Assembly (NCBI RefSeq): GCF_016427565.1
Contig: NZ_JAELXT010000018.1
Location: forward strand, 1 to 64,000
Source: Microvirga splendida
Lineage (GTDB): Bacteria > Pseudomonadota > Alphaproteobacteria > Rhizobiales > Beijerinckiaceae
Reading direction: 5' to 3'
Length of the DNA: 64,000 nt
Shown: positions 11,313 to 62,779 of the stretch, one piece after another
How positions within the stretch are numbered: the first letter of the stretch is position 1
How the letters are laid out: every line of letters starts with the position of its first letter
Notes under the pieces: generated by a model
What the model was told of the DNA's origin: nothing
The model's input: only the letters and a program-made list of their open reading frames with translations
Database searches by the model: none
Position numbers and translations under genes: made by a program

Positions 11313-11587
11313 GTAAGGTTCCTTGCGTTTCCGCGCGGAATTGGGCCTAGATCGGTAAATCTGCGCTGATCCAGTACGCCTCCTTGCCGTTAAGAACGGG
11401 TTAACAGGCTGCAAAAAGTACACTTTGGACCCAAAATGCGTGTGCTGGAGTGGGCCAAGGCAGTGGAGCTACCTACTGGGAGGGCTAACTTCCTGCCTGG
11501 GAGGTAGGCTCTGAAGGAAGCAGAGACTGGCAGCCAAACACGCTGAGCCGAATCGGAGGTTTTGGTCGCAGACCCTCTGGAGTATTT

Positions 11588-15676: not shown

Positions 15677-16398
15677 GTGTCAATTTCTGATGAGATTTCG
15701 GCTCTTTGTACATACTTTGCGATCATCGGAAAAGGATCGTTTGAAGACGTTTTTCAAGTCATTCTGTTAACTAGCTGGCGAAGGCAGGGCTTTCCTACAG
15801 CCAGCGAAAGTGCTTTGGAAACAAAGGCTTTAGCGGCTCGGCTGGAGCCGAAAGGCCTAAATAGATGCCCGTGATCTGATTTCTGATGAAGCCGCTCACG
15901 ATGCAGCCAAGCGATGTGGCGTTTATCCGACCATCAGACCGTAGCCATTCCTTAAATACCTTCCTGCGCTGTATTTAGGCCCAAGGACATCATAGGCTTA
16001 GCAATAGGAAGAAGCGTGACTTTGGGAAAGGCCAGGTTCGGAAACCTTAAGTGAGTGAGGACTTGCTGGAATCCATGCTGCTTCTGCTACGATGATCAGA
16101 GGAGGGCAGGTCAGGAGCTAAAAGCGGACTTTCTCACGTCCAAGCTGAAGGGCAGTCCGTGACCGAGGCCGTTCTCTAATTCCGGGTCTGGGGTCAAGCT
16201 CTCTGTGAGCATCCTTGCCGGGTCCAGGGTTCTCTCCGCGGTAAGGACAGGCCTTCCGCATGATGGCGTCAGATGACGCTGGCGGATCAATGTGTGAAGC
16301 GCGCTTGGCCCAGAAGAGCGTCGCAAAGCCTGGGGCGATCTCACCAACGCCAACGTCCCGGCAGGGACCTTGCTTCCCGCGGGTTGGCGGGAAACGGG
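15677..16398. other. Intergenic region between two serine recombinases
   Basis: I see no gene in these ~720 bases; the open frames have no family resemblance. The segment next to 15677 carries the resolvase promoter and possibly its recombination site; direct evidence for either was not found. Confidence 0.4.
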
Positions 16399-18135
16399 TT
16401 AAACTTTCATGCTGCTTGTTGGGCGGCCTCCTGTGATGACCAGTGGAAGTCCGTGCCATCCATCCACATCCGGTGCAGAATGACGACGTGCAGGACAATG
16501 GTGCAAAGTTCGGCGTGCCTTGGGTGGGCCTGAGAAGCCAGGATCGACCCGGAAGATCACCCGAACAACATCATCGGCCACCTCGATGCGCTTGACGAGG
16601 GTACAGATAATGTCGCGCTTCGTCGCCCAATCCGCACCCGCGAGCCGATCGTGCACCATCGTGGCAAACAGGTCGAGTTTGCCAATGACGAGGTGCAGCG
16701 AGCGGACTTGCTCATCGGCTTCCTGTTGAGCCTGGGCTTCAGCTTCAAGCCGGGCTGTCCGGCGGCGCAACTCGGCCAGGCGCGGCTCGAACTCAGGCTT
16801 CTCGATCAAGCCCTCCATGTAGCTGTCGATCAGCCGCTCGATGGCACGGCGCGCCTTCGCCAGCTGACGGCCGAGAGCATCCAGTTCGAGTTGGTGCGGC
16901 GTGGCCTGCACCGCGTCCAGGCGGCGCTGATACTCTTCGATCACCCGCGTCGGGTTGTCGAGCAGCCGGCAGACCTCGCTCCAGACGGCCTCATCGAGCC
17001 GATCGACCGCAACCAGGCGGGCGTCGCATCGCCGCTCCCCGTGGAACCGGGTGCGGTCAGTGCCGCAACAGCGATAGTACCGCCATGGTCCATAGGGGTG
17101 ATACCCGGTGAACCCATAGCCACACTTCTCGCAGACGAGCAGACCCCGCAGCAGATACTGAACGCCTGAAAGCCGCTCACGATTGCGCTTTCGGTTGTCC
17201 TCCAACCGCTCTGCGACACTCGCAAAGAGGTCCTCGTCCACAAGGGCGGGCACCGCGATGCTGATGTGCCGCTCGGCCGCGGCTGGCACTTGTCGATAGG
17301 GCTTGCGCGGCATGCCGTCGTGGCCGCGCGGTGGATGAAGCGGCGCCTGCCATGGCACACACTGGCGGCGACCATAAACCGCTTGACCTGCATAGGCCGG
17401 GTTGCGCAGCATGGTGTGGACCACGGTCCGGCTCCAGTGCGGTTGACCGGTCGGGCTTGGAATCCCGCTGTCGCGCAGGCGCCGGCAAACCTCGGCCAAC
17501 GTCAGTCGCTCGTGCCCGACCCAGGTGAAGATCTGGCGCACAATCCGGGCCGCCGCCTCGTCAATCTCGTAGCGCGCAGCTCCTCCCCCGGCCTCGCGCG
17601 TGATGTAGCGGTAGCCGAAGGGCGCGCGGGACAGGACACTGACGGCACCGGCTTGAGCGCGATGGCGCTTGCCGCGCCGGCTGCGCTCCAGCACTTTGGC
17701 TCTCTCGTACTCGGCGAACATGCCCTGCAGCTGCAGCAGCAAACTGTCCTCGGGCGTGGTCCCGATCGGGCGATTGAGGAAGACCACTTGCGTGTCGGCA
17801 TGGGTGAACTCCTCGATTAACAGAACCTGGTGCGCGTAGCTGCGCGCGAGACGATCCGGGGACTGGATATAGACGAGATCAATCGCCGACAGCGCCACGA
17901 GGTCGCGCAGACGCTCCAGGGCCGGACGGATCAGGCTGGCGCCGCTGTGGCCATTGTCGATGAACCGCAGATCCTCTCGGACGCAGTGGCCGTCCTGCTC
18001 TGCTCGGGTGGTCAGCTCCGCCAGTTGGCTGTCGATGGTGTGCTGCTCAGCCTGCTGGTCGGAGGAGACGCGGGCGTAGAGGGCGACCTGCAGGGTCTGT
18101 GGGGCCGAGACGGCTCTCAGGTGCGGGGTTCTCAT
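16399..18135 (-). CDS. Large serine recombinase
   Basis: The 578-residue protein has the order typical of large serine integrases. A resolvase domain comes first (ALYARVSSDQQAEQHTIDSQ, catalytic Ser in ARVSS; IQSPDRLARS), then a recombinase domain (APFGYRYI, TVVHTMLRNPAYAGQAVYGR), a zinc beta-ribbon (LLVCEKCGYGF with a second cysteine cluster YYRCCGT and ERRC) and a coiled coil (residues ~440-510). Such enzymes integrate and excise mobile elements. GAGGGAG about 8 bases before the ATG supports the start. The last ~35 residues after VIFRVDPGF do not look like the family tail, so the original stop may have been lost. It overlaps a small upstream ORF. Confidence 0.88.
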   Translation of the reverse strand: MRTPHLRAVSAPQTLQVALYARVSSDQQAEQHTIDSQLAELTTRAEQDGHCVREDLRFIDNGHSGASLIRPALERLRDLVALSAIDLVYIQSPDRLARSYAHQVLLIEEFTHADTQVVFLNRPIGTTPEDSLLLQLQGMFAEYERAKVLERSRRGKRHRAQAGAVSVLSRAPFGYRYITREAGGGAARYEIDEAAARIVRQIFTWVGHERLTLAEVCRRLRDSGIPSPTGQPHWSRTVVHTMLRNPAYAGQAVYGRRQCVPWQAPLHPPRGHDGMPRKPYRQVPAAAERHISIAVPALVDEDLFASVAERLEDNRKRNRERLSGVQYLLRGLLVCEKCGYGFTGYHPYGPWRYYRCCGTDRTRFHGERRCDARLVAVDRLDEAVWSEVCRLLDNPTRVIEEYQRRLDAVQATPHQLELDALGRQLAKARRAIERLIDSYMEGLIEKPEFEPRLAELRRRTARLEAEAQAQQEADEQVRSLHLVIGKLDLFATMVHDRLAGADWATKRDIICTLVKRIEVADDVVRVIFRVDPGFSGPPKARRTLHHCPARRHSAPDVDGWHGLPLVITGGRPTSSMKV

Positions 18136-48995: not shown

Positions 48996-49430
48996 CTATG
49001 CGTCGTCACCCGGCGCTGTGTCCGCCGGAGCAGAGTGCCGCCAGCACCGCAGGCTGTAGCCATCCTCGAAACACGTGCGGGTGGGCCAGCAGCGCAAAGA
49101 GCCCGTTAAACAGGCCAAGCTCAGGCTGACGATGGCGATCCAGCCCAGACCTTGCAAGGCCGCCGGGCCGAAAGCAAAGCTTTTCTGGATCCAGTGCAGC
49201 GACATTATGAAGAAACCGACACCGAACAGCCATCCACCAAGACTATTCGCAATCAGACCTCTCAGGTGTCGAAGGGCGATGAGATGGCAGGTCAAAGCGA
49301 TCAGCGCCACTGGCTACCAGGAGAGGGATGCAAACCCCAGTCCGTACAACACCCCAAGAACGACCTGGAGTGTAAGGCTCACGCTGGTCTTGCCTATGCT
49401 CGATAGGGCAAAGCCCCGAACACCCTCCAT
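48996..49430 (-). pseudogene. Remnant of apolipoprotein N-acyltransferase (lnt)
   Basis: The frame begins at the ATG 49430 and reads through VVLGVLYGLGFASLSW, meets a TAG at 49316-49314 where family members have an aromatic residue, and continues in the same frame with PVALIALTCHLIALRHLRGL and GGWLFGVGFFIMSLHWIQKS. This is the N-terminal membrane part of Lnt, the enzyme that adds the third acyl chain to lipoproteins. After about 130 codons the similarity ends; the nitrilase-like catalytic domain is missing. So the gene has both a nonsense codon and a large truncation. Confidence 0.75.
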
Positions 49431-49768
49431 TCTGACTGAGATCACATCTCCGTCCAACATTGACCTGCCTTGGTTGATTGCAGCATTCGGCCCGCTGCAA
49501 CGGGTTGCCGGGGGCTGGTGCTATTGCTTCCCGTCTCAGACACGGAGCATCGTAAGAGCGACACGGCGTGCGCCCCCGCTGGTTTGTCACCATTCAACCG
49601 AGGACTGGTCAAAAGTGGATCAATGATGGCCTTCCCGATTTCCTGATCTGCGAGTAGGCTTGAAGAGCGACGATCGAGTGCCCCTAACTACGGGATTGCA
49701 GAACCCAGCCGGGCGTCAACGAGCAATCAGGCCGGGCCCAAACGCTGATCAGAGAGTGGAGATGACCA
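49431..49768. other. Intergenic region upstream of ccmF
   Basis: About 340 bases. No gene is supported; it carries the ccmF promoter and possibly that of the dead lnt copy. Confidence 0.4.
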
Positions 49769-51742
49769 ATGCTCATTGAGGCCGGACATTATGCCCTTGC
49801 GTTGGCTCTGAGCTTATCTTTGATCCAGCTCATCGTGCCGCTCTGGGGTGCGCGGGTCAACGATCCTGCCTTGATGGGGGTCGCGCCGGCCACCGCCCTG
49901 GCGGTGGCGGGCTGTGTTGCCTTTGCCTTTCTGGCGCTGACAGCCGCTTATGTGACCTCCGACTTCTCGGTTCTGAACGTGGTCGCAAACTCCCACTCGA
50001 CCAAGCCGATGATCTACAAAATCTCGGGTGTGTGGGGAAACCACGAGGGCTCGATGCTCCTCTGGGTTCTGATCCTGACCTTGTTCGGGGCCATTCTTGC
50101 AATGGCAAAGGATGCAGTGCCGCAGCGGCTTCGGGCCAACACGCTTGCAGTTCAAGCATCGATCACCCTGGCGTTTCTGCTCTACCTGCTCATCGTCTCA
50201 AACCCCTTCACGCGGGTCACTCCCGCTCCGCTCGAGGGGCAGGATCTGAACCCGCTGCTGCAGGATTTCGGGCTCGCGATTCATCCGCCACTCCTCTACC
50301 TCGGCTATGTGGGCTTCTCGATCTCCTTCGCCTTCGCCGTGGCAGCCCTGATCGGCGGGCGCATTGATGCGGTCTGGGCGAGAATCGTGCGCCCCTGGAC
50401 TCTCGGGGCCTGGATCTTCCTGACACTGGGCATCGCTATGGGCTCGTACTGGGCCTACTACGAACTGGGCTGGGGTGGCTGGTGGTTCTGGGATCCGGTG
50501 GAGAACGCATCCTTCATGCCTTGGCTCGCCGGCACAGCCCTCCTGCATTCCACCGTGGTCATGGAGCGCCGGGATGCACTCAAGGTGTGGACAATCCTGC
50601 TCGCCATTCTCACATTCTCGTTATCGCTGCTCGGAACGTTTTTGGTCCGATCCGGCATCCTGACGTCGGTGCACTCCTTCGCCGTTGATCCGGCCCGTGG
50701 CGTCTTTATTCTGGCCATTCTCATCGTCTTTATCGGCGGTTCGCTGACCCTGTTCGCGTGGCGTGCACCGCTCCTGCGGCAGGGTGGTCTGTTCGCGCCG
50801 GTGTCGCGGGAGGGGGCGCTCGTGATGAACAATCTCTTCCTGGCGACTGCCTGCGCAACCGTCTTTATCGGCACGCTCTACCCGCTGGCCTTGGAGTCAC
50901 TGACCGGGGAAAAGATTTCGGTCGGAGCGCCCTTCTTCAATTTAACCTTTGTGCCGCTTGTAATTCCGCTTCTCCTGCTTCTGCCCCTCGGCCAGACCCT
51001 AGCCTGGAAACGGGGCGACCTCCTTGGCACGACCCAGCGCCTCTTCTTGGTATTCGGCCTCGCCCTGCTTGCCACTTTCGTTCTCCTTGCCCTCACGGTC
51101 GAAGGGCCCGTTGCAGCGCCGCTCGGCGTTGGTCTCGGCGTGTTTCTGATCCTAGGTTCCCTCAATGAGATCGTGACGCGATCCTGGCGACGCGGTCAGC
51201 CGTTCAGCATTACGTTGCGCAAGGCGGCTGGCCTGCCGCGCTCGGCCTGGGGTATGGTGATGGCTCATGCCGGCGTTGGTCTAACCGTGATTGGCATCGC
51301 CGCGTCAGCCTGGAGCGTCGAGAATATAGCGACGATTCGCCCGGGTGAGCAGGTCAGAGTAGGGTCATATCAGGCGCGTCTGGAGAGTGTTCAGCCGAGG
51401 ACAGGCCCCAACTATCGCGAGGATGTGGCACGGCTGACAGTTGTTCGGGCCGACCGGGCCATTGGCACTGTTGAGACAATGAAGCGCGTCTATCCAGCCC
51501 GAGGCATGCCGACGACGGAAGCCGGCATTCTCACCATCGGGCTCAGCCAAATCTACATCAGTTTTGGGGATGTGCAGGCGGATGGTGCGATTGCCATCCG
51601 GCTTTACTACAAGCCTCTGATCCTGCTCATCTGGCTTGGCGCGATTGTTATGGCTGCGGGCGGCACCTTATCACTGAGTGACCGGCGCTTCCGCATCGGA
51701 GCGCCAGTGCAGGCGAGGATGGTGCCTGCTCCGGCCGAATAG
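49769..51742 (+). CDS. ccmF: Cytochrome c biogenesis haem lyase CcmF
   Basis: A 657-residue inner-membrane protein of the System I cytochrome c maturation machinery; with CcmH it ligates haem to apocytochrome c. About 15 helices are visible. Conserved parts are WGNHEGSMLLWVLIL, the tryptophan-rich haem-handling WWD segment GGWWFWDPVENA, and periplasmic His residues such as in VLHS-like ALLHSTVVMERR and SVHSFAVDPARG. Length is normal. GGAG precedes the ATG by 9 bases. Other ccm genes (A-E, G, H) are absent from the window, so this is an isolated, probably additional copy. Confidence 0.95.
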   Translation: MLIEAGHYALALALSLSLIQLIVPLWGARVNDPALMGVAPATALAVAGCVAFAFLALTAAYVTSDFSVLNVVANSHSTKPMIYKISGVWGNHEGSMLLWVLILTLFGAILAMAKDAVPQRLRANTLAVQASITLAFLLYLLIVSNPFTRVTPAPLEGQDLNPLLQDFGLAIHPPLLYLGYVGFSISFAFAVAALIGGRIDAVWARIVRPWTLGAWIFLTLGIAMGSYWAYYELGWGGWWFWDPVENASFMPWLAGTALLHSTVVMERRDALKVWTILLAILTFSLSLLGTFLVRSGILTSVHSFAVDPARGVFILAILIVFIGGSLTLFAWRAPLLRQGGLFAPVSREGALVMNNLFLATACATVFIGTLYPLALESLTGEKISVGAPFFNLTFVPLVIPLLLLLPLGQTLAWKRGDLLGTTQRLFLVFGLALLATFVLLALTVEGPVAAPLGVGLGVFLILGSLNEIVTRSWRRGQPFSITLRKAAGLPRSAWGMVMAHAGVGLTVIGIAASAWSVENIATIRPGEQVRVGSYQARLESVQPRTGPNYREDVARLTVVRADRAIGTVETMKRVYPARGMPTTEAGILTIGLSQIYISFGDVQADGAIAIRLYYKPLILLIWLGAIVMAAGGTLSLSDRRFRIGAPVQARMVPAPAE

Positions 51743-51747
51743 ATGCC

Positions 51748-51912
51748 GTGGCCGATCCTTCGAACCGCACGTTGCGTCAAGGTGAGGCAGCTACTGCCGT
51801 CCGGTTCTGTTATGTCGGTCAGCCCCTCCGCAATCCAGAAGTGCGCGCATCCCAATTTGAGCAGGAGCGAGAGCAGATCGAGACACTGCTCAATATACCG
51901 GCTTCCCTCTAG
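51748..51912 (+). CDS. Possible 54-residue ORF after ccmF
   Basis: The frame starts with a GTG 5 bases after the ccmF stop and encodes VADPSNRTLRQGEAATAVRF, then CYVGQPLRNPEVRASQ and a short helix. It reads like protein rather than random sequence, but lacks a ribosome-binding site and I recognise no family. Its end overlaps the convergent L,D-transpeptidase stop by a few bases. It may be the leftover of a larger gene. Confidence 0.2.
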   Translation: MADPSNRTLRQGEAATAVRFCYVGQPLRNPEVRASQFEQEREQIETLLNIPASL

Positions 51913-53180
51913 TTTTGCAGGAACATCTCCTGGTCCGGCTCGGTCGGGGTGCGGCTCGCCACCGGGATGGCGTTGCCGAGGCCGTCCTTGTTGTAGATGT
52001 CGTCGCGGAACTGCACGAGGCCGTCCGGGGTCGCCCAGGCGGTGACATAGACCCAGTAGACATTGATCGCCTGCACGAGTCTAGCATCGATGCGGTCGCC
52101 GGACTTGAAGGTGGCGTCGATCTGCTCGCGGGTCCAGCCGGGGGTGTCTTTCAGCAGCCACTCGATATAGTCGCGCACATTCTGTACGCGGATGCAGCCC
52201 GACGACACGAAGCGGAAATCGTCGCCGAAGATGCCTTTGGACGGTGTGTCATGCATATAGACTCCATCCTTATTCGGCATGTTAATGCGCACGAAGCCCA
52301 TCGAGTTGATCTCACCGCCGGGATCTTGCTTGAACATATACCGGGTGGCTTCATTTGAGTTCCAGTTAATCTGCTCAGGTCTAATCTCCTGACCCTGTCC
52401 GTTGATAATTCGGATCTTGTTCTCCGTCAGATAGTTAGGTTCCTTCTGCATCTTCGGTATCAGGTCTTTCCGAATGATCGAAGCTGGAACCGTCCAGAAC
52501 GGGTTGAAGTTCACTTCCGTGATCTTAACATTGATGATGGGCGACTGACGGTCGATTTTGCCGACGCCGGCCGCGTGGCGGGTATGAACGACGCCGCCCT
52601 CCACCGTCTCCACGAGAGCGGCGGGGATGTTGGCGACCACGTACTTGTTGGGAAGCCCGGCGCCGACGAGGCTGCGCAAGCGAGAGACGTTGATCTCGAG
52701 CTGGCGAATGCGGACGTCGACCGGCACGTTCATGGCCGTCACGGTCGGACCCGTGATGGTGCCCGTGGAGCTGATGCCGTGGCGGGCCTGGAAGCGGCGG
52801 ACGGCGGCCTCGACGTAGGAATCGTAGATCGACGATTCGCCGGCGGCCTGATCGAGGTCGCCGGTGATGATGAGACGCTGGCGCAGGGCCATGACGGCCG
52901 GGCTCTTGGAGCCGACGCGCAGCCCCTGGACGCCCTGGACCGGCTGCCAACCGCCGCGGGCGGCGATGTTGCGGTAGTACTCGATCATCTGCTCGGTGGC
53001 GGCCAGCGCCTCCTGAGACAGCATGGGCGTGGAGGTCCGCTGCACGCGGGTGCGGGACACCGCTTCATAGTTCTGCGACCACTCGGCCTGGCTCTGGGCA
53101 AACTGCTGGGCCAAGGCTCCGGTGGCCGGCGTGAAGACGAGTGCGAGCGATCCAGTCAGGAGGGTACGGCGAGACAACAT
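51909..53180 (-). CDS. L,D-transpeptidase (YkuD domain)
   Basis: A 423-residue exported enzyme that cross-links peptidoglycan or attaches proteins to it. The signal peptide is MLSRRTLLTGSLALVFTPAT with a cleavage near ALA-QQ. A peptidoglycan-binding-type domain follows (VMALRQRLIITGDLDQ, AAVRRFQARHGISSTGTI), then the YkuD domain with KYVVANIPAALVE, YMHDTPSKGIFGDD and the catalytic motif SSGCIRV, containing the active Cys. The ATG at 53180 is supported by the signal peptide; the frame runs 121 codons further upstream without similarity. The gene is convergent with ccmF. Confidence 0.92.
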   Translation of the reverse strand: MLSRRTLLTGSLALVFTPATGALAQQFAQSQAEWSQNYEAVSRTRVQRTSTPMLSQEALAATEQMIEYYRNIAARGGWQPVQGVQGLRVGSKSPAVMALRQRLIITGDLDQAAGESSIYDSYVEAAVRRFQARHGISSTGTITGPTVTAMNVPVDVRIRQLEINVSRLRSLVGAGLPNKYVVANIPAALVETVEGGVVHTRHAAGVGKIDRQSPIINVKITEVNFNPFWTVPASIIRKDLIPKMQKEPNYLTENKIRIINGQGQEIRPEQINWNSNEATRYMFKQDPGGEINSMGFVRINMPNKDGVYMHDTPSKGIFGDDFRFVSSGCIRVQNVRDYIEWLLKDTPGWTREQIDATFKSGDRIDARLVQAINVYWVYVTAWATPDGLVQFRDDIYNKDGLGNAIPVASRTPTEPDQEMFLQN

Positions 53181-53729
53181 GAGTGCAGGCTCTTCCCGGT
53201 TAAGTGTGGTCGACTGCGGGAGCGGCGGACGGACGCCCGGCCTACTCCCTCTCCCAGCGATAAGTGCCGGGATAGGATTAAAGAACAGTATTGAAAACAG
53301 GGAACATCGAGGCCGTTGTATGGCAAATCGGCACGCCCGAACTCTCTTCGGCTTCCGAACAGCTGCTGGAAGCCATGTAATTCTGAGGTGCGCTCTTGGG
53401 GATACACTTCTGCGTGAGGAGCTTAGCTTTGTGCCCCGGACGAGGTCCGCCGTGGCGCATCGAGCGGAAAAGTGGACCCGGTTTTTCGCTGACGCGAACC
53501 TTCGGTTCGGATCCAACGATTCGATCTTCAAGAAATGGAGCATCGTTGGATGCTACAAGCAGGAGCCCGCTTCTGGATCCGATGCTCTAGCAGGCTGATA
53601 GACCAGCCTTGTGGGTCACAGCCTGATTCTCTTCGTCTGGTCATCGAGGGTTCTTCCCCGGTCCGGAAGCGCTCATCCTGTGCTTTCAGCAAAGGCGGTT
53701 GCTCAGCGTCGAGCAACTTCGCCGGGAGT
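53181..53729. other. Intergenic region with palindromic repeat
   Basis: About 550 bases. A stem of two 10-base arms lies at 53511-53551. On the plus strand an open frame without start codon (ends 53787) reads LILCFQQRRLLSVEQLRREF and then SQFDLMTLLDTIHQTTV, possibly a gene remnant of unknown family. No complete gene is seen. Confidence 0.4.
53511..53551. repeat. Intergenic palindromic element
   Basis: ATCCAACGAT (53511-53520) and ATCGTTGGAT (53542-53551) form a perfect 10-base stem with a 21-base loop, beside a shorter hairpin (GAACC TTC GGTTC, just upstream). The look is that of small intergenic palindromic repeats (RIME-like) of Rhizobiales; no second copy was noticed here. Confidence 0.45.
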
Positions 53730-54110
53730 TCATCTCGCAATTCGATCTGATGACGTTGCTCGACACGATCCATCAGACCACCGTGTGACACAGCGAACAA
53801 ATGCTCCAGAAGCCATATTCCCCTGCCACGCTGTAACCTGGAACAGGTAAAAGCCGTTGAACCGCACGCCAATAGACGCAGCCCGATCCTCAAAGCCTGC
53901 TGGGGCCGTGTCGGCATCATGAAGAGGCCGCTCAAACGTCCAGTCTTCTAAGTCGAGGAACCTGGGCACAGGCCAGTGTTCCGGCACAGCACAGAGAAGT
54001 TCAGGCCGCTGCCTGTTCCGGAACAGGTTATAGGTGCACTCGCGTGCGGATGGTCTAGCAGAAGCCAGCAACGGAACGGACATCACGGTAGGTCCTTTGG
54101 AAGCCGACAC
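53730..54110 (-). CDS. Small conserved hypothetical protein
   Basis: The centre of this 126-codon frame fits a short family I recall from Rhizobiales: NLFRNRQRPELLCAVPEHWP, VPRFLDLEDWTFERPL and FEDRAASIGVRFNGFYLFQ. Function unknown; no signal peptide. The start is uncertain (54110 or 54083), and the last ~25 residues look like a run-on after the domain. It stands alone. Confidence 0.5.
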   Translation of the reverse strand: MSASKGPTVMSVPLLASARPSARECTYNLFRNRQRPELLCAVPEHWPVPRFLDLEDWTFERPLHDADTAPAGFEDRAASIGVRFNGFYLFQVTAWQGNMASGAFVRCVTRWSDGSCRATSSDRIAR

Positions 54111-54317
54111 TCGTTTAAGTTGTTGATCCAGAGCGGCTGTCGCAAGCCTTACAGGACCTTAATGATATTTTGTATCATACTCATGAGGTATATGAGGCGA
54201 GAAATAATGTGTTCCGGCATGGCCTCATCTTTATCTGCACCAGCCGTCCGCAGGGTTTGCAGGAGCCGCAGGCTCGTTCATTGAGGTCAGGCCCCATCGT
54301 CCCCATGTCAGGCGATG

Positions 54318-55247
54318 ATGAACGACATTGCCATCACAGCCGACGCGCTCAACCCACCCATTCTGATGGCCGCGGACGGCTCGCTCCGGCGGGTCGGAGT
54401 TGAGATCGAGTTCCTTGGCCCAACAGCCCGGGCTGCCGCTGAGGCTGTTGCCAATGATCTTGGCGGAACCTGTGAGGCTGAAGATCCGCACGCTTTCAGG
54501 GTCGCCGGCACCGGTCTGGGCGACCTGCTGATCGAAACCGACCTGCGGCACGTCCACCCTGACCGCCATCCGGAGCTCGGCCTGAGGCTGAACCGCCGTT
54601 TGGCGACATGGCTCGGCACAGTGGCCGCACCGTTCGTCCCGCGCGAGCTCATCACCGCCCCCTTGCCCATCGCCCGGCTCTCGCAGATGGGCATCGTCGT
54701 AGCCAGCTTGCGGGCAGCGGGAGCGCATGGCCGCGGGGCCGTGCTCTGGGACTCGCTGGGCCTCCACTTCAACATCGATCCACCGCGTCTTGATGCGGCA
54801 ACTGTGATGGCCTTTCTGAAAGCTTTTCTCCTGGTCGGCGACCGGCTGCGGCAGGAGGTTGCACGCGGGAGCTTTCGTGGTGCCCTCGTCCTTCCGCCGG
54901 ACTACCCGCAGGCCTACAAGCACCGCGTGCTTGATCCCGCCTACTGGCCGCGCCTGCCGGAGTTGACCGAAGACTATCTTGAGGCGAACCCGACCCGGAA
55001 GCGGGCGCTGGATCTTCTGCCACTGCTGGCGCACTTTAATGAGGAGCGGGTGCGCTCTATTCTGCCGCATGAGAAGATCGCATCCAGGCCGGTGTTTCAC
55101 TACCGGCTGCCGCAGGCGCACCTGAGCGATCCTGCCTGGAGCATCATGCCGGACTGGCAGCGCTGGCTGAGCGTGGAGCGTCTAGCGGCGTGTACGGAAG
55201 GGCTTGCCGCGTTAGGTAAGGCGGTTCTGAGCCGTGGGAGCACATGA
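54318..55247 (+). CDS. Amidoligase family protein
   Basis: The 309-residue product belongs to the putative amidoligase enzymes of the glutamine-synthetase/GCS-like fold. It shows VGVEIEFLGPTARAAAEAVA with the metal-binding Glu pair, FVPRELITAPLPIARL, WDSLGLHFNIDPP, and TRKRALDLLPLLAHFNEERV, SRPVFHYRLPQ at the end. Family members ligate an amine to a carboxylate using ATP; substrates are unknown. In most genomes the gene is followed by a class I glutamine amidotransferase / gamma-glutamyl hydrolase gene. That partner is missing here; a tRNA remnant follows 60 bases after the stop. Confidence 0.85.
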   Translation: MNDIAITADALNPPILMAADGSLRRVGVEIEFLGPTARAAAEAVANDLGGTCEAEDPHAFRVAGTGLGDLLIETDLRHVHPDRHPELGLRLNRRLATWLGTVAAPFVPRELITAPLPIARLSQMGIVVASLRAAGAHGRGAVLWDSLGLHFNIDPPRLDAATVMAFLKAFLLVGDRLRQEVARGSFRGALVLPPDYPQAYKHRVLDPAYWPRLPELTEDYLEANPTRKRALDLLPLLAHFNEERVRSILPHEKIASRPVFHYRLPQAHLSDPAWSIMPDWQRWLSVERLAACTEGLAALGKAVLSRGST

Positions 55248-55777
55248 ACAGGTTCGGCAGGGTTTCGTGTATCTGATTCAAGTCCACTGATGATCGCTCT
55301 TTTGACATCTGGCTTTTAATCAGAAGGTCCTGGGTACAAATTCCAGTGCGCTCACAGAGAATTCGCTGGCCCGCCAGCTTTTACCCTTCTGTGACATATC
55401 CATCCAGGTGGCCCGATGCTTCGGGTGTCGCCGGGATTTGCTTATGGAAGATGCCTGGCCGAAGCCGACCTTAGCGAAGGGCAGGGACTTGATTGTTTGC
55501 TCCGCTCGTCGTAGGCGGATTGGACATGGTATATGCGGTGTATTGCGGCAGGGCTGCATTCCTGATTTTACGAATGAGCTCGCCTATATCATGGCCTGCT
55601 GCGGCCAATGGAGCTCAGGAACTCCCCTTAAGGATATGACCTGGATTCCCGGTTATTCTGTGAGAGGGTACATATCGTTCATCCTCTGGGACGGGATCAT
55701 GATGTGGATTGGGTCCACCGATGCACTGTGCTTCCGCAATCCTCCCGTCCGCCCACGACGCAGTGAAGGATGATCCT
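55248..55777. other. Intergenic region with tRNA scar, upstream of hmp
   Basis: About 530 bases. It holds a degenerate tRNA-Lys 3' half at 55307-55355 and, near 55700-55777, the hmp upstream region. Open frames between 55400 and 55770 show no family resemblance. I found no convincing NsrR or FNR-type box. Confidence 0.45.
55307..55355 (+). pseudogene. tRNA-Lys(UUU) 3'-half remnant, possible attachment-site scar
   Basis: The sequence runs from the anticodon arm to the 3' acceptor strand of a tRNA. The anticodon stem is TCTGG/TCAGA with loop CTTTTAA (anticodon TTT). A variable region AGGTC follows, then the T arm CTGGG-TACAAAT-TCCAG, and TGCGCTCA as acceptor. The T loop has two changes from TTCGAAT, and no matching 5' half (GAGCGCA, D arm) precedes it, so it is not functional. 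Integrative elements often leave such 3' tRNA fragments at their end. Confidence 0.6.
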
Positions 55778-56992
55778 ATGTCTACCTCGCTCAGCGACAC
55801 GACCATTCATCTTGTGAAGGCCACGGTTCCAGCCCTCCAGGAGCATGGCTTGACGATCACGAAACGCATGTACGAGCGCATGTTCCGGAACGCGGAAATC
55901 CGCGACCTCTTCAACCAATCCCATCACGGCGAGACTGGGTCCCAGCCCAAGGCGCTGGCAAGCGCCGTGCTCGCCTATGCTCAGAACATCGACAATCTCG
56001 GCGCCCTCGCGCCAGCCGTCGAGCGAATCGCCCAGAAGCACGTGGGCCTGAACATCCTGCCCGAGCACTACCCGCACGTGGCCGAGGCGCTGCTCGGCGC
56101 GATCAAGGATGTGCTCGGTGACGCCGCCACCGACGAGATCCTGGCTGCCTGGGGCGAGGCCTACTGGTTCCTGGCCCATGTGCTGATCGGACGCGAGAAG
56201 GCGATCTACACCAGTCTGGCGACTGCCCCCGGCGGCTGGAACGGCTGGCGCAATTTCCGGATCGAAGGCAAGAGCCCTGAGAGCGAGATCATCACATCCT
56301 TCGTGCTGCGGCCGGAGGATGGCAAGCCGGTCCTGCGCCACCAACCGGGCCAGTACCTGACCTTCTGGATTGACGTCCCCGGGCAGCATCCGCTTAAGCG
56401 CAACTACAGCATCTCCAGCGCGCCGAACGGCGAGACCTACCGCATCTCGGTGAAGCGGGAGCCGCAGGGCATCGCGTCATCCTGGCTGCACGATCACACC
56501 AACGTCGGCACGATCCTGAAGGTGGCGCCACCCGCAGGCGAGTTCTTCCTCAATGAGGAGTCGCCGCGTCCTGTGGTGCTCCTGAGCGGCGGCGTCGGCC
56601 TGACCCCGATGATGAGCATGCTGGAGACCATTGCGGCCCGGTACCCGAACAAATCTGTTCATTACGTGCACGGCACGCTCAACGGCTCCACCCATGCCAT
56701 GAAGGACCGCGTCCGCTCCCTGGTCGAGACCCATCCCAACATCCGGGTCACGACCTTCTATGTCGAGCCGCGCCCAGAGGACCGCCAAGGAGAGGACTAC
56801 GATCATGAGGGTCTGATCTCGATGGACTGGCTGCGGGCCAACACGCCGCTGGACGAGGCGGGCTACTACCTGTGCGGCCCGCGGCCGTTCCTGCAGGCGT
56901 TCGTGGGCGGATTAGCCCTCGCTGGGGTCCGGTCAATTCGCATCCACTACGAGTTCTTCGGACCAGCCGACGAAATCCTCGCAGCGGCTTGA
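55778..56992 (+). CDS. hmp: Flavohaemoglobin, nitric oxide dioxygenase
   Basis: A 404-residue fusion of globin and ferredoxin reductase that oxidises NO to nitrate with NADPH, FAD and haem. The globin part has KRMYERMFRNAEIRDLFNQS and the proximal-His segment AQKHVGLNILPEHYPHV. The reductase has the FAD motif RNYSISSAPNG, the NAD motif LLSGGVGLTPMMSML and the end YYLCGPRPFLQAF and IHYEFFGPADE. AAGGA stands 7 bases before the ATG at 55778. It seems monocistronic. A role in nitrosative stress follows from the family. Confidence 0.95.
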   Translation: MSTSLSDTTIHLVKATVPALQEHGLTITKRMYERMFRNAEIRDLFNQSHHGETGSQPKALASAVLAYAQNIDNLGALAPAVERIAQKHVGLNILPEHYPHVAEALLGAIKDVLGDAATDEILAAWGEAYWFLAHVLIGREKAIYTSLATAPGGWNGWRNFRIEGKSPESEIITSFVLRPEDGKPVLRHQPGQYLTFWIDVPGQHPLKRNYSISSAPNGETYRISVKREPQGIASSWLHDHTNVGTILKVAPPAGEFFLNEESPRPVVLLSGGVGLTPMMSMLETIAARYPNKSVHYVHGTLNGSTHAMKDRVRSLVETHPNIRVTTFYVEPRPEDRQGEDYDHEGLISMDWLRANTPLDEAGYYLCGPRPFLQAFVGGLALAGVRSIRIHYEFFGPADEILAAA

Positions 56993-57491
56993 GCGGTTGG
57001 GCCCTCGACGGATCCAGTGGCGAATAGAACAGGGGCGGCTTGAGCCGTGCCTGCGGATCTTGGACAGTTTAGAAATACCAGCGCGGGTTGCCACGCGGAT
57101 GAGACCACGCTCCGGCCAGGTTAAGTGACCAGCCTTTTGAACCTCTTGCCAGTTCGCCCTTCTGGCGGAAGGCTCAGGCTGGTCTTGAGAGGCGTTCAGG
57201 ATGGTAGACCGAAAGCTGTTGAGGCAGGCCTTGAGTGAACTCGTGATCCTGAAGAACCGGAGCATGATCCCTCACGCTTCCTCGGGCAGCTCTACGCGTC
57301 AGCCCTAAAGGAGTGGGCAGAGCGCCTCAGCGTCGATCCATTCAAACTTAATAAACTCGTTCTCGCCAAGGTGATGATCGTAAGCTACCACTTGCGCTAG
57401 GTCCCGCATCAGCCGCTAGCGGATTGATGATCCGCCTGGGCCAATGGACAGATGTACTGCTTCCGGGCTCCTTGTCGGACACCTCTCAGGT
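56993..57491. other. Intergenic region after hmp
   Basis: About 500 bases; no supported gene. Stop codons interrupt all longer frames. Confidence 0.4.
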
Positions 57492-57695
57492 TCACGACTT
57501 CCGTTTCGACGAAGTCAAAGCCGTGTTCTGTTCAATCGCGAGCAGGGCGAGCATTTCACTGGGAACAGGAATAAGAAGCTCCTCTCGGGTGCGATTTCGC
57601 AGAACCTGTCCAATATGCTCGATAACGTACCGGGGTAGGTGTGGCGTGCCTTGACTCCCCGTCCGGCTCTGCCGCCGGGTTTCATCTGCCCCCAT
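57492..57695 (-). CDS. NepR-like anti-sigma factor, small
   Basis: A 67-residue protein with the pattern of NepR, the anti-sigma factor of the alphaproteobacterial general stress response: LPRYVIEHIGQVLRNRTREE followed by PVPSEMLALL. In the family this is a helix I-G-x-x-LR, a loop and a P-V-P-x-x-hh-x-LL helix that hold the sigma factor. The ATG at 57695 has GGAGAA 6 bases upstream, a good start. EcfG and PhyR genes are not nearby, so this would be an additional, isolated NepR paralogue. Identification is by eye on a short sequence. Confidence 0.5.
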   Translation of the reverse strand: MGADETRRQSRTGSQGTPHLPRYVIEHIGQVLRNRTREELLIPVPSEMLALLAIEQNTALTSSKRKS

Positions 57696-58051
57696 AAGCA
57701 ATTCTCCGTCGCCGTTGCTCGGCTGTTATGTCAGTGGCTGCAGACCGAACTCATAACGATGGGATCGGGTTTCAGAGGTGCCGTGCGGCAAATAACTGCT
57801 CTCAGAAGGCGTCGCTTTCCCGCCGCCTGGCCTTGACCTGCGGTTTTCCAAGTCAGATGGACAGTTGCTCCAAGATCAGGAAGTCCTGTTCGATCTCTAA
57901 CAGAGCAGGCTTCTTGCTCCCCGGCAGAATCCTTCAGCAGTTGCCCTGTCCAAGGATAGAGTGGCCGTGAGCCGTTCCTCACGACACCCCGCATGATCTC
58001 ACCAATGCAGAAGAGATCATGGACGCCAAATGCAAGCTCGACAGGCGGATC
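57696..58051. other. Intergenic region before IS5 element
   Basis: About 350 bases containing the presumed nepR promoter; nothing else supported. Confidence 0.35.
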
Positions 58052-58054
58052 TGA

Positions 58055-59008
58055 GAGGCTGGTGAGCAATTATCTTTCTTTTCGTGTGAGGCGCCGCAGC
58101 AGGATGCGGCTCATGGCGAGATAGAGCAGCATCTCGCCGGTCGCGACCAGACGTTCATAGTCCTTCGCCAGCCGCCGGTTGGTGGTCAACCATGCCAGTG
58201 TTCGCTCCACCACCCATCGGCGTGCGAGCACCTGAAAGCCGCTCGGACGCGTCGGCGGCTCTGCGTCAGCCCGCATCCAGACGCCGACGCTCCACCAGTG
58301 TTGCGGGATCGACAGCCTCCAGCCCAGGGCCTTCTGGAGCCAGTCCCGCAAACCACGATAAGCCGTGTCGGCCCACAGCAGCTCGATGGCGGGGAAGAGA
58401 TGCTGCAGACCCTCCAGCAGGAGTTCGGCTCCGGCGCGATCGTGGAGGTCGGCGGGCTGCACGCTGTTCTTCAGCAGATTGCCTTGCGTATCCACCAGAA
58501 GATGACGCTTGCGGCCCTTGATCTTCTTGCCGCCATCATAGCCGCGTGGCCCACCCATCTCGGAGGTCTTGACCGATTGACTGTCGATGATTGCCGCACT
58601 CGGTTGAGGATTGCGGCCGATCCTGCAGCGATAGCTCTCGCGCAGCGCCTGAGTGATGTGCTCCCAGGTGCCATCGTCACGCCACTGGGCATAATGGTAG
58701 AAGACGGCGTAACGCGGCGGATACTCGTGCGGCAGCAGCCGCCATTGCGCCCCGGTGCGCAGCAGATAGAAGATCGCATCGACGATGCGCCGGAGCGGAT
58801 AGGTCTGCCGCCGCCCGGCCGGATGGCTGCGGGGGACAAGAGGCGCAAGCAATGCCCATTCGGCATCATTGAGGTCGCTGGCATAGAGACAGGTGTTCAT
58901 AGCAGGGCTCCTCGACCGTCAAATCGCCCGCATCCACCTCACCGATCTTTATGAAATCCATTCTGAATCAAACACTTGAAGTGAGCAATAAAATTGCTCA
59001 CCAGCCTC
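58055..59008. mobile_element. IS5-family insertion sequence (IS427 group), complete
   Basis: The element has 16-base perfect terminal repeats (GAGGCTGGTGAGCAAT at 58055-58070 and its complement at 58993-59008). It is flanked by TGA on both sides (58052-58054, 59009-59011), a 3-base target duplication of the TNA type expected for the IS427 group. Near the right end GTGAGCAAT-AAA-ATTGCTCAC forms a 9-base hairpin. Clean ends and duplication indicate a recent insertion. Confidence 0.9.
58070..58900 (-). CDS. IS5-family transposase
   Basis: A 276-residue single-frame transposase: DUF4096-type N-terminus (LNDAEWALLAPLVP, IVDAIFYLLRTGAQWRLLP) and DDE domain with AAIIDSQSVKTSEMGGPRGY (first Asp), LLWADTAYRGL (second Asp) and RWVVERTLAWLTTNRRLAKD (Glu). 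No frameshift is present, so it is probably active. Confidence 0.92.
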   Translation of the reverse strand: MNTCLYASDLNDAEWALLAPLVPRSHPAGRRQTYPLRRIVDAIFYLLRTGAQWRLLPHEYPPRYAVFYHYAQWRDDGTWEHITQALRESYRCRIGRNPQPSAAIIDSQSVKTSEMGGPRGYDGGKKIKGRKRHLLVDTQGNLLKNSVQPADLHDRAGAELLLEGLQHLFPAIELLWADTAYRGLRDWLQKALGWRLSIPQHWWSVGVWMRADAEPPTRPSGFQVLARRWVVERTLAWLTTNRRLAKDYERLVATGEMLLYLAMSRILLRRLTRKER

Positions 59009-59051
59009 TGATAGTCGCAGCGCTCCGGGATCTCGGCCCCTTGGAGAGGCG

Positions 59052-59270
59052 TCAGGCGTCGGACTTGCCCGCTGCCTTCCGGAGAGCCGCGTTGATGGGG
59101 CACTGCCAGACTGGGCCATCCTCCTGAATAAGGCTGAGAACGTCGCTGCCGATCCGCAAGGTGACAGTCTCCTTCACCCTTAGGACGAGGGTGTCCTCGG
59201 CAACTCCCCGAGGGGCTGGGTCGTCGTCTTCTTGAAGACAACCTCGCGGCTTTCACCAGATTGCACAGGC
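59052..59270 (-). pseudogene. Decayed BrnA-type antitoxin (DUF4415)
   Basis: The last 41 codons (59177-59052) read VKETVTLRIGSDVLSLIQED, then GPVWQCPINAALRKAAG, the ribbon-helix-helix end of BrnA/DUF4415 antitoxins. The upstream piece SREVVFKKTTTQPLGEL (to ~59270) resembles the linker preceding it, but in another frame. No start codon and no BrnT toxin gene are present. I read it as the remnant of a toxin-antitoxin module, lying between the IS5 element and the next gene. Confidence 0.55.
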
Positions 59271-59304
59271 GCCCATGGTGATCCCGGTATCATAGCCCTA
59301 TAGA

Positions 59305-60711
59305 TCAATAGTCCAGGAACGAGCGGTTCTGGTCGTCCGTATAGATGTCGTGTGGTTCGTTCCCGGGCTGGCCCGCAAGGTAGAGCACGCTGGCAACGCT
59401 GCCGGTGCGGGTCTCGGGCAGGATCTGGCGAGAGACAAAGGGGAACACGCTGCGGATCGTTGCATCGATGCTGCGGCTGAAGCGGTCGGAGAAGTTCGGT
59501 GAGGTGATGATGTTCATGACCACCTGACCGCCCGGCGCTACCGCCTGCCTGACGGCGGCGAACGCCTCACGGGTGATCAGGTCCGGCGGCAGGCTGATGC
59601 GGTTCGTGAAGGCATCGAGCACGACAACATCATAGGTTTGGGTGTTGCGGCGCAGGAAGGCGCGGGCGGATTCTGGCACGAAGGTCTTGTTCGAGGACAG
59701 GGGCTGGCGCAGGAAGTGCTCCTCGCTCACCTGCCGCAGGGCGGGATCGATATCCACATAGGTATAGGCATGGAAGCGATCCTCCAGGCCGATGGTGAAC
59801 CCTCCGGCCCCGACCACCAGGATGCGGCGGGGCCGATCCGTGTCGAGCCTCCTGAGGACTTCCTTCTCGATGAACTTCAGGTAGGCGAAGCGGTGCTCGG
59901 GATGAGCTGCGATCTTGGAAGACGGGCTGTTGTTGATGACCAGGAGACGGCTGTCCTCGGCGAGGTTCGTGACGATCCGCACCTCGCTGTAGAGATTGTT
60001 GCTGACGATGCCGTAAGCCTTCACGGCGGCGGGGCTGTTGACGCCGATGATGAAAAGACCAAGCACGCCGGCGGTGAGAGCCAGCCTGTTGCGGTCCTCC
60101 ATGCGCCAGCCGATGAGGGTGGCGAGCGCCACAAGAAGCCCGAGGGTCAGGGCCACCGTGATGTGGACGCCGAAGAAGGTCATGAGCACGAGGGTCGACA
60201 CCACCGAGCCCAGAAACGACCCAAGGGTGGACAGGAAGAGCATCAGCCCCGTGGAGCGGGGCAGGCTGGCGCCGGTGGAGCAATACGCGACCAGCGGGAT
60301 GGTCTGGCCTAGGAGGTACACTGGATAGACCAGGAACAGGGAGGTGTGCACGGCAGCCTGGACAAGGCGGTGCGTCAGACCGAGGCTGTCAAGGATCTGG
60401 AAGAATGCAGCCAGAAACGGATGGGACAACCCGAAGCTGAGGATGAGAGCGGCGATCAGCAGGTTCCGGATGAGCTGCCGGCGCACGCCGGCCTCATCGC
60501 CTGGAGCGAAACTGGCCCGGCCGCCGGCCTCGTAACCCAGGGCCAGGGGGAGCAGAACCGCAGCGATGACGATGGCAACCGTATCGGTGGCGTTACCCAC
60601 GTAAGGGGTGAGCTGACGGATGGCGAGGAGTTCCACCGCGAGAACGGCATAACCCTCGATGGCAATGGCACTGAGGAGCAAGGGGGAAGAGAACATGAGG
60701 GGAAGAGCCAT
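59305..60711 (-). CDS. Membrane protein with spermidine-synthase-like domain
   Basis: The 468-residue protein has seven or more membrane helices (residues 1-240; LSAIAIEGYAVLAVELLAIR, and SLFLVYPVYLLGQTIPLVAY) followed by a soluble methyltransferase-fold domain of the polyamine aminopropyltransferase type: ILVVGAGGFTIGLED, YVDIDPALRQV and YDVVVLDAFTN. The fusion is known as a polyamine aminopropyltransferase-like membrane family, whose reaction is mostly untested. The start is set at 60711 (GIRSPMALPLMF); upstream residues show no helix. The gene appears monocistronic. Confidence 0.82.
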   Translation of the reverse strand: MALPLMFSSPLLLSAIAIEGYAVLAVELLAIRQLTPYVGNATDTVAIVIAAVLLPLALGYEAGGRASFAPGDEAGVRRQLIRNLLIAALILSFGLSHPFLAAFFQILDSLGLTHRLVQAAVHTSLFLVYPVYLLGQTIPLVAYCSTGASLPRSTGLMLFLSTLGSFLGSVVSTLVLMTFFGVHITVALTLGLLVALATLIGWRMEDRNRLALTAGVLGLFIIGVNSPAAVKAYGIVSNNLYSEVRIVTNLAEDSRLLVINNSPSSKIAAHPEHRFAYLKFIEKEVLRRLDTDRPRRILVVGAGGFTIGLEDRFHAYTYVDIDPALRQVSEEHFLRQPLSSNKTFVPESARAFLRRNTQTYDVVVLDAFTNRISLPPDLITREAFAAVRQAVAPGGQVVMNIITSPNFSDRFSRSIDATIRSVFPFVSRQILPETRTGSVASVLYLAGQPGNEPHDIYTDDQNRSFLDY

Positions 60712-61171
60712 AGGAGAACGGATTCCTCGGGTTTGAAACCACGCGTAGGACGAGTGGCAGACTGGAACCTTGTACCGAGTGCACACTGGTCACAATCCGC
60801 ATCCAAAGCCAGGGCACCTGCACTTTCCTCTCCAATATTGTTCCATAGCGCAACTGGTTACGAGGCTGGTTCTCCGTTCGGGCCTGGTCCTGTTTGTACT
60901 GCGGGGTCGTTGCAAGTGCCTATCACGTGGGATCATCGACCCGGTCTTCCAGCGAGCAGACCAACTTGGGTCAAAAGCGGTTCGTCAGGCTCATATCCCC
61001 TGGCGAGCTCCTCGCCAGGGGATATTCTGGTGTCGGCGCACATCAATCTTCTACAATCCAGGTTGTGCCGGAGATTGAATTATCGTTCTACTGAACTAGA
61101 AAACCGACAGAGTGTCAGCGCGCAATGGCCAATAGCAACCCACCGTGCTGACGTAGTAGAGCAAGCAGACT
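60712..61171. other. Intergenic region with long hairpin
   Basis: About 460 bases with no supported gene. It contains a long perfect hairpin at 60993-61025 and the promoter of the minus-strand membrane protein gene. Confidence 0.4.
60993..61025. repeat. Perfect 15-base-pair hairpin
   Basis: ATATCCCCTGGCGAG and CTCGCCAGGGGATAT flank a CTC loop. No T-run follows on either strand and no gene end is near, so a simple terminator is unlikely; a binding site, processed RNA or the scar of a mobile element are open. Confidence 0.6.
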
Positions 61172-61366
61172 TTGGTAAATCATAACCGACAAACTGAATC
61201 ACCATCTCGGAACGGCACCATACCGTCGGAGGAGTTCCTGCGGGTACGGCGACGCAAAAACCTTATCATTTTGGGTGTTTTGCTCGCTTTCGTCGGGGGC
61301 GTTATTACACTGACTTTCTTTCATGTTTCCAAGGAAGGAAGCAGTCAAACGCGTTCAATCCGCTAG
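61172..61366 (+). CDS. Small single-pass membrane protein
   Basis: Up to 64 residues: a polar N-terminus, the basic stretch LRVRRRKNL and one membrane helix (IILGVLLAFVGGVITLTFF). The pattern RxRRRKN-helix resembles small cytochrome-oxidase-assembly-associated proteins in Rhizobiales, but no cox or cta genes are near, so I leave it unnamed. The start (TTG 61172) is doubtful and no strong ribosome-binding site is seen. Confidence 0.4.
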   Translation: MVNHNRQTESPSRNGTIPSEEFLRVRRRKNLIILGVLLAFVGGVITLTFFHVSKEGSSQTRSIR

Positions 61367-61933
61367 CCAAGCCCGCGGGTGGTAAAGCCAGCAAGTAGAC
61401 AGCACCCTCGGACAGCCTCCAATTCTGCCCGATGCCTGTGTCGATTTTACCTAGAATCTGCTCTTGAACCTCAAGTGGCTAGAGCTTCTATCTTCAGACT
61501 ATTCGCTGCTAACGCGCAGAGGATAGGGCTCTAAGATGACCGCTAGCTCAGGACGACCATATTCCGACATGCTCTGCCCAGCATGCCGCATCGGCTGCGT
61601 GCCGAGCGGGCGGCAAGGCATCAAAACCGAGCGCTGCCTGGAATGTCGCAGGCATCGAAGTCTGAGCGCTCGCCAGCGAACGGAACTGGGCATTTCACCT
61701 TCAAAGGCGCGCAGATCATGACGGCGACCACGAGCCGCCTCTTCGAACAAAATGCCATTTGAACCTCGGATGCACAGCTTGATCACGTTTCTGGCACCCT
61801 CTCAGTTGGACTCCGTGCAAGTTCCTAATTCCGGTGTTGCATGCGGGGGAACTCTACCCTCCTCTCACGCGGGCCGGAATTGTTGCATTTGCATTCAACG
61901 AGGAAGCAATGCGACCGACAGAGATCCACGGGC
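61367..61933. other. Region before lepB
   Basis: About 570 bases. It holds one possible small Cys-rich ORF (61536-61721) and the lepB promoter region. Nothing else is supported. Confidence 0.4.
61536..61721 (+). CDS. Possible small zinc-ribbon ORF
   Basis: A 61-codon frame with two cysteine pairs: MLCPACRIGC and ERCLECRRHR, separated by ~17 residues, a spacing that could bind zinc. The rest is basic and Ser-rich. The ATG has GAGGATAGGG upstream at a loose distance. Composition could also be chance. Confidence 0.25.
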   Translation: MTASSGRPYSDMLCPACRIGCVPSGRQGIKTERCLECRRHRSLSARQRTELGISPSKARRS

Positions 61934-62710
61934 ATGAACAACAAAACCGGCAAATACGTGGGTAGCACCATGAAAAATGAAGAAGGCAGCCTCCGGGAAA
62001 CGATCAAGGTCATCATCCAGGCCCTTCTGATCGCGGTTGTCGTGCGCACCGTGCTGTTCCAGCCCTTCAACATTCCATCGGGCTCTCTCATCCCGACCCT
62101 GCTGATCGGCGACTACCTGTTCGTCTCGAAGTATTCCTATGGCTATTCCAAGCACTCGATTCCCTTCAGCCCGGGCATCTTCTCCGGCCGCATCTTCGGA
62201 TCGGAGCCCAAGCGCGGCGAGATTGCCGTGTTCAAGCTGCCACGAGATAATTCGACGGATTTCATCAAGCGTGTGATCGGGCTTCCGGGCGACAAGATCC
62301 AGGTGATCAGCGGCGTACTGCACATCAACGGCCAGCCGGTTCAGCGCGAGCGCGTAGAGGATTACAAGACCACCGACCTGTACGGCCGCACCATCAGCGT
62401 TCCCCAGTTCCGCGAGACCCTGCCTGGCGGCGTCACCTACAACGTGATCGAGCGCGACGGCGACCGCGGCTACTGGGACAACACCAATGTCTATACGGTG
62501 CAACCCGGCCACTTTCTCATGATGGGGGACAACCGGGACAACTCCACCGATTCCCGCGACGAGGCGAGCGTCGGGCAGGTGCCCTTCGAGAATCTCGTGG
62601 GCCGCGCCGAAATGATCTTCTTCTCGATCGACGAGACCGCATCCCTCTGGCGGCCCTGGGAATGGCCGCAGAAGATCCGCTGGAACCGTCTCTTCGAGGG
62701 GATCCGCTGA
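61934..62710 (+). CDS. lepB: Signal peptidase I
   Basis: A 258-residue membrane-bound Ser/Lys protease that cleaves signal peptides of exported proteins. One membrane helix (TIKVIIQALLIAVVVRTVLF) precedes the catalytic serine in NIPSGSLIPTLL (most homologues have SGSM). The catalytic Lys lies in FIKRVIGLPGDKI, and the signature GDNRDNSTDSR is intact. The start at 61934 is plausible; an ATG at 61970 is the alternative. The usual rnc-era neighbours are absent, so this is probably an extra copy. It may serve the many exported proteins on this replicon (inference). Confidence 0.93.
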   Translation: MNNKTGKYVGSTMKNEEGSLRETIKVIIQALLIAVVVRTVLFQPFNIPSGSLIPTLLIGDYLFVSKYSYGYSKHSIPFSPGIFSGRIFGSEPKRGEIAVFKLPRDNSTDFIKRVIGLPGDKIQVISGVLHINGQPVQRERVEDYKTTDLYGRTISVPQFRETLPGGVTYNVIERDGDRGYWDNTNVYTVQPGHFLMMGDNRDNSTDSRDEASVGQVPFENLVGRAEMIFFSIDETASLWRPWEWPQKIRWNRLFEGIR

Positions 62711-62779
62711 CCCGTGGCACGCCGTAAGCCATTGAGGCCCATGTTCAGCCTCCGATGACAAAGTGAAGATCTGAATAAC

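Follow-up and report, generated by a model that had tools for sequence, protein, structure and literature searches.

The window (the whole stretch of Microvirga splendida DNA analyzed here; 64,000 nucleotides) lies on contig C9, which has 97,883 bases and carries repA and repB. No PF03428 match (i.e., repC) was detected on C9 in this assembly of 62 contigs. Contig C9 is plasmid derived and is perhaps itself a plasmid. Our subject is the short region between an amidoligase gene and a flavohemoprotein (hmp) frame. The relevant features are as follows (coordinates of the window, with the strand in parentheses).

8977-10104 (-): repB, plasmid partitioning (TIGR03454, 363 bits)
10104-11423 (-): repA, plasmid partitioning (TIGR03453, 586 bits)
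49311-62751 (no strand): block common to the window and the 306-kb replicon C2 of relative G049, shared with relative G003 only to 55630 (blastn segments, 86-92%)
54315-55247 (+): Amidoligase_2 gene, left neighbor of the relic (PF12224, E value of 2.6e-34)
55306-55312 (+): 5' strand of the anticodon stem, 7 bases, left half of the putative core site (inside the BLAST match)
55313-55319 (+): anticodon loop CTTTTAA, putative 7-bp crossover region (identity of most sister fragments starts here or a few bases earlier; role suggested by the general model, PMC8371274)
55313-55357 (+): decayed tRNA-Lys(UUU) 3' half from the anticodon loop to the 3' end, the candidate att core (37 of 45 bases shared with the strain's own intact gene; BLAST)
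55358-55414 (+): degenerate copy of the DNA 3' of the intact tRNA gene ("class 1" flank; 75% over 110 bp)
55709-56992 (+): hmp frame, right neighbor (NF009805, 572 bits; Globin, FAD, and NAD domains)

The true hmp start is probably further inside its frame. The RepA and RepB proteins of C9 are 87% and 76% identical, respectively, to those of a repA-repB pair on G019:C6, which has a tRNA-Lys fragment (L116) at a distance of about 4 kb. Immediately upstream of repA is a truncated tyrosine recombinase (11736-11963, -; PF00589 positions 100-170), the sole PF00589 match in the window and 43 kb from the relic. Serine recombinases are encoded at 14768-15676 and 16399-18135 (both -), one of them resolvase type and the other large with a zinc ribbon. 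An IS4/5-type transposase gene occupies 58070-58900 (-), and an 86% relative of it is found on G049:C3, close to a tRNA-Lys fragment (L077). Because the shared block on G049 C2 is unbroken across 58051 to 59011, the transposase was either inserted later in the window or lost in G049.

The tRNA-Lys(UUU) 3' half in the window

The 3' half of a tRNA-Lys(UUU) gene is readable at 55306-55357 (+), with the anticodon stem and loop including TTT, the variable loop, the T arm, and the acceptor strand. A first-pass annotation had recognized the TTT anticodon arm, T arm, and acceptor strand, and this description holds. Its edges (55307-55355) differ slightly from ours: the core spans 55313-55357 and is preceded by seven stem bases, and weak likeness to tRNA-flanking DNA follows as far as 55414. 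In a BLAST search of the strain's own genome, 55306-55355 matched C59:228686-228735 (86% identity, E value of 7.3e-10 over 50 bases), where ARAGORN identified an intact tRNA-Lys(ttt) gene (C59:228662-228735). The proposed match to the strain's tRNA-Lys(UUU) gene was thereby found.

Aligned with the intact gene, the 45-base 3' half scored 62, compared with a maximum of 29 in 5000 mononucleotide shuffles. A 23-base core pattern (up to three mismatches) had one match in the window and none in 100 shuffles. The DNA 5' of the relic scored 8 against the tRNA 5' half, with the anticodon stem left out of the alignment, and 4413 of 5000 shuffles reached this score. As the 3' half is far above the shuffles and the 5' half is not, we conclude that the former is present and the latter absent, in agreement with the first-pass annotation.

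ARAGORN called no tRNA in the window, and no Rfam match reached the gathering score. A permissive Rfam scan of 55101-55600 yielded RF00005 at 55292-55354 with 17.6 bits (E value of 0.65), under the 29-bit cutoff. By the annotation's own account, its reading would be refuted if a covariance-model search gave no tRNA signal and the chromosome had no similar tRNA; only half of this came about, with the signal below the cutoff and the matching tRNA present in the genome. The low covariance score might suggest that the likeness to a tRNA arose by chance, but the probability of this is negligible: chance similarity was ruled out by the BLAST E value and the absence of matches in 100 shuffles, and the half recurs at the same place in two relatives. 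Two observations favor a complete tRNA-Lys gene that decayed on the plasmid: the weak Rfam match covers the entire model, and whole tRNA genes occur on some secondary replicons. That history is very improbable, since the shuffles match the tRNA 5' half as well as the DNA upstream does in both the window and G003, whereas the 3' half retains 37 of 45 and 35 of 45 bases, respectively; we rejected it on the 5'-half shuffle test.

Weak likeness to the sequence that follows the intact gene continues as far as 55414 (75% identity over 110 bp to C59 of the same genome, core included). In the copies of G003 and G049, a profile of this class 1 flank extends to position 100, compared with the core alone in the window. 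No complete flank module was detected at the relic, where the class profiles matched only at the core. By our reading, T55A and G57A (tRNA numbering) are among the substitutions relative to the intact gene, and on the basis of these changes the relic should not function as a tRNA.

A tblastn search with 11 recombinase seeds revealed no recombinase remnant by the relic (best E value near 55 kb, 0.74), and BLAST revealed no second tRNA-Lys att copy, in direct orientation or otherwise, on C9, a possibly incomplete contig. The integrase and second att copy to which the annotation had pointed were thus lacking near the relic and on C9, respectively. The half derives from a tRNA gene of which the genome also has an intact copy; with no integrase nearby, we classify the site as a relic and not as a live island. 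A search of 55200-55800 against a plasmid collection in "distant" mode gave no match.

Most of the window from 49.3 to 62.7 kb is shared with G049 C2, a 306-kb replicon with its own repC. Inside the shared block, the worn half is also present in G003 and G049, where 35 of its 45 bases agree with the intact gene, and six substitutions are common to the three copies in our comparison. Because the same worn copy occurs in the same neighborhood in two relatives, it is an old, inherited relic. The scar would either predate the split of the window, G003, and G049 lineages or have come with the shared block; given its age and its presence in both relatives, the order of events has been lost. Six other Microvirga records contain the amidoligase gene; in these, similarity to the window ends at 55187-55234, and the hmp side is absent from the flank examined (6 kb; 3.8 kb in one record). 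In G017, similarity begins at 55600, before hmp. The relic lies inside the interval in which synteny breaks in other species. G003 diverges from the window 274 bp to the right of the relic, not at the core. G049 matches the window on either side of the relic, and hence no flank switching is seen at the window site itself.

Relative to the window, G003 and G049 have about 974 extra bp at 53808-53817, where a 10-bp overlap is present in the window; this reflects either a short-repeat deletion in the window or an insertion in G003 and G049. In Microvirga sesbaniae (L146, near 6661), a tRNA-Lys 3' half is located about 4.4 kb to the right of the amidoligase gene, a position unlike that in the window.

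Sister fragments in Microvirga genomes

BLAST revealed three further tRNA-Lys 3' halves in the same genome, on contigs C16, C18, and C23. The C16 half has a recombinase-like frame 232 bp downstream, just under the Pfam cutoff, and the C18 half retains 1.9 kb that is found to the right of the intact gene in G003. Across the genus, the 23-base core (up to two mismatches) was found in 42 of 48 genomes, with 180 matches in total, a maximum of 16 in one genome, and three or more copies in 24 genomes; in these counts, some two-mismatch matches may be other tRNAs, and copies that have decayed to the extent of some relics escape detection. With the same design, three or more copies were found in none of the 48 genomes for the control tRNA-Phe and in 4 for the control tRNA-Lys(CUU), one of which had eight. 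Among 296 genomes from other genera of the order, three copies were the maximum, seen in 4 genomes, although this count used a different, stricter pattern and is not like-for-like with that for Microvirga.

Four nearly complete genomes (G016, G019, G049, and G050) allowed the copies to be placed on replicons. Their 26 core matches comprise 4 intact genes and 22 others (one of which, G019:C3:578314, was counted without retrieval of its sequence). All four intact genes are on contig C1, which makes up about 65% of the assembly by our sum, and 21 of the 22 other copies are off C1. A repC match was detected on each of the ten secondary contigs carrying a fragment and, among the C1 contigs, only on that of G019, a genome with an estimated contamination of 18%.

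From a chosen part of the matches, we compared 79 sites (26 intact genes and 53 fragments) after removing sites with identical near surroundings, including the G049 copy of the window relic. In most fragments, identity sets in at, or a few bases ahead of, the anticodon loop. A recombinase-like frame was detected within about 320 bp of 13 of the 53 fragments, upstream and divergent in 11 cases (two of which are short pieces) and downstream in 2, one of them (L088) with only DUF6538 in Pfam. Two upstream frames that were scanned are full phage-type integrases with Arm-DNA-bind_3, central, and Phage_integrase domains. No such gene was found nearby with the 11 seeds in the flank examined of the other 40 fragments, nor in that of any of the 26 intact sites, for 14 of which the flank covered at most about 1.5 kb.

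The right flanks group into classes about 70 to 300 bp long; at the intact gene, the class varies among species. The short repeats of these classes may be integrase arm sites. The motif of the distal flank module, searched with a single-sequence profile, occurs at 23 places, 16 of them to the right of a core. Among 1378 fragment pairs (52 skipped because the flanks were too short), 29 have a common left flank, and in no case does their shared right flank extend past 500 bp; the window-G003 pair is one of the 29 and shares 274 bp on the right. Fragments with a common left flank switch right flanks at the core. Another four pairs share only right-side DNA, one of them from the core onward. Two G019 plasmids have 4.1 kb in common from the core on (99.85% identity), with unrelated DNA on the other side. 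By eye, the far end of this block resembles an IS. On G016:C3, two halves in direct repeat enclose about 72 kb, one end of which has an integrase. A precise empty site was not found for any plasmid-borne fragment.

These data also bear on whether homologous or IS-mediated exchange with a chromosomal tRNA-Lys island could alone have brought the half to the plasmid, with no site-specific event there. Such exchange would accommodate the absence of an integrase near the relic, the DNA resembling that 3' of the intact gene, the long stretch retained by the C18 fragment, and the IS-like end of the G019 block. However, we consider it unlikely, because the recurrent start of sister fragments at the anticodon loop and the switching of flanks at the core are unlike exchange at random points.

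Possible routes by which tRNA-Lys halves reached plasmids

The stretch at 55306-55357 is very probably the decayed att site of a tyrosine-recombinase element that recombined at the anticodon loop of tRNA-Lys(UUU), and the 45-base leftover probably marks the past joining of a mobile element to a plasmid. The earlier suggestion of a possible attachment site is supported in that only a 3' half is present, on a repA/repB contig and not beside an intact gene. The relic itself is ordinary. It seems to belong to a genus-wide family of plasmid-borne tRNA-Lys att sites, and this family is the part worth following.

Elements of this type carry the tRNA 3' half in attP, so that every integration leaves an extra 3' half. 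The site fits the textbook model, with the anticodon loop as a 7-base overlap region and the stem as the core half-sites (PMC8371274; Islander, PMC4383910). In Microvirga, unlike in that model, the halves have spread across secondary replicons that lack the tRNA gene, where they look like junctions joining different DNA blocks. An ancestor of the C9 plasmid may have acquired one half, after which the element and its integrase would have been lost from the window locus or moved away; the core has presumably been mutating since before the strain split from G003 and G049. A plasmid-borne half could act as attB for the next element, and modules would then pile up and swap. Within this scheme, we infer the order of events, the chemistry at the window site, and the use of plasmid halves as attB. 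Part of the spread of the halves may be due to homologous and IS-mediated exchange.

We propose only tentatively that plasmid-borne tRNA-Lys(UUU) 3' halves are shared docking sites through which elements could enter and leave repABC replicons without a tRNA gene, exchanging blocks and building arrays, the window relic being a dead site of this kind. The first-pass annotation had favored insertion into a tRNA gene and later transfer to a different replicon. Its reading is partly supported: the half is of the attachment-site type on a repA/repB contig, and further halves and integrases exist in the genome. The history itself is one of several possible; C9 has no second copy, and no recombinase remnant was found near the relic. 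As nearly all placed halves are on secondary replicons, docking at plasmid-borne halves would explain the relic equally well.

Composite cassette islands such as SCC hold several modules between direct att repeats. Similarly, seven same-strand tRNA-Lys cores, 21 to 54 kb apart, are arrayed on a 235,848-base contig (G053:C59; L082-L093), with no intact tRNA-Lys gene among them. Unlike SCC, the tRNA halves are found on several replicons, and the neighboring genes detected encode tyrosine recombinases. The work of Williams in 2002 reportedly treats tRNA sublocations. Among the literature matches listed, which lie mostly outside subscription literature, none concerned tRNA-Lys att sites in Microvirga.

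The Islander study (PMC4383910) seeks the displaced 3' tDNA fragment in the replicon that holds the tDNA. The islands it describes likewise involve a 3' tDNA fragment, a class of crossovers centered on the anticodon, tyrosine integrases, and tandem arrays. The window relic differs from them in having no integrase, and the 21 of 22 extra copies lying off the intact-gene contig in the four nearly complete genomes contrast with that search. Because Islander is limited to the replicon of the tRNA gene, a class of integrations would have been overlooked if plasmid halves act as att sites. The attR-type partial tRNA genes described in PMC9897764 were also left by mobile-element integration and are easily misannotated; unlike them, the window copy is worn and was not called by ARAGORN. 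At the anticodon-loop core sites covered in PMC8371274, the seven-base loop and the flanking stem likewise form the overlap region and core, and the identity of the Microvirga fragments starts there. Site-specific integration is also described for phage-related sequences of Sinorhizobium meliloti, a multireplicon relative in the same order (PMC11476347). There, such sequences are twice as frequent on chromosomes as on megaplasmids, whereas secondary replicons carry nearly all of the tRNA-Lys halves placed here.

If plasmid halves do act as att sites, they would help explain how large plasmids of multireplicon soil bacteria gain and swap blocks. As precise landmarks, the halves allow the plasmids of Microvirga to be divided into modules, and the docking-site idea is testable with the integrases found next to some halves.

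Genes and repeats near tRNA-Lys halves

By the C16 fragment and integrase-like gene of the window's genome is a PglZ-domain gene (L070:615-3140, +; G000:C16), possibly a defense gene. On G016:C3, a complete tRNA gene adjoins a tRNA-Lys fragment on a secondary replicon (L121; 1002493-1002566, -). The window stretch at 16094-16183 (+) matches the distal part of the class 2 and class 3 flank modules with no core nearby, and is perhaps a separate intergenic repeat. A 460-codon gene lies to the right of tRNA-Lys halves in two genomes (L116 on G019:C6, L118 on G019:C5, and L122 on G016:C3); it encodes a cytochrome P450 in L122, with L116 and L118 judged by size and flank similarity only.
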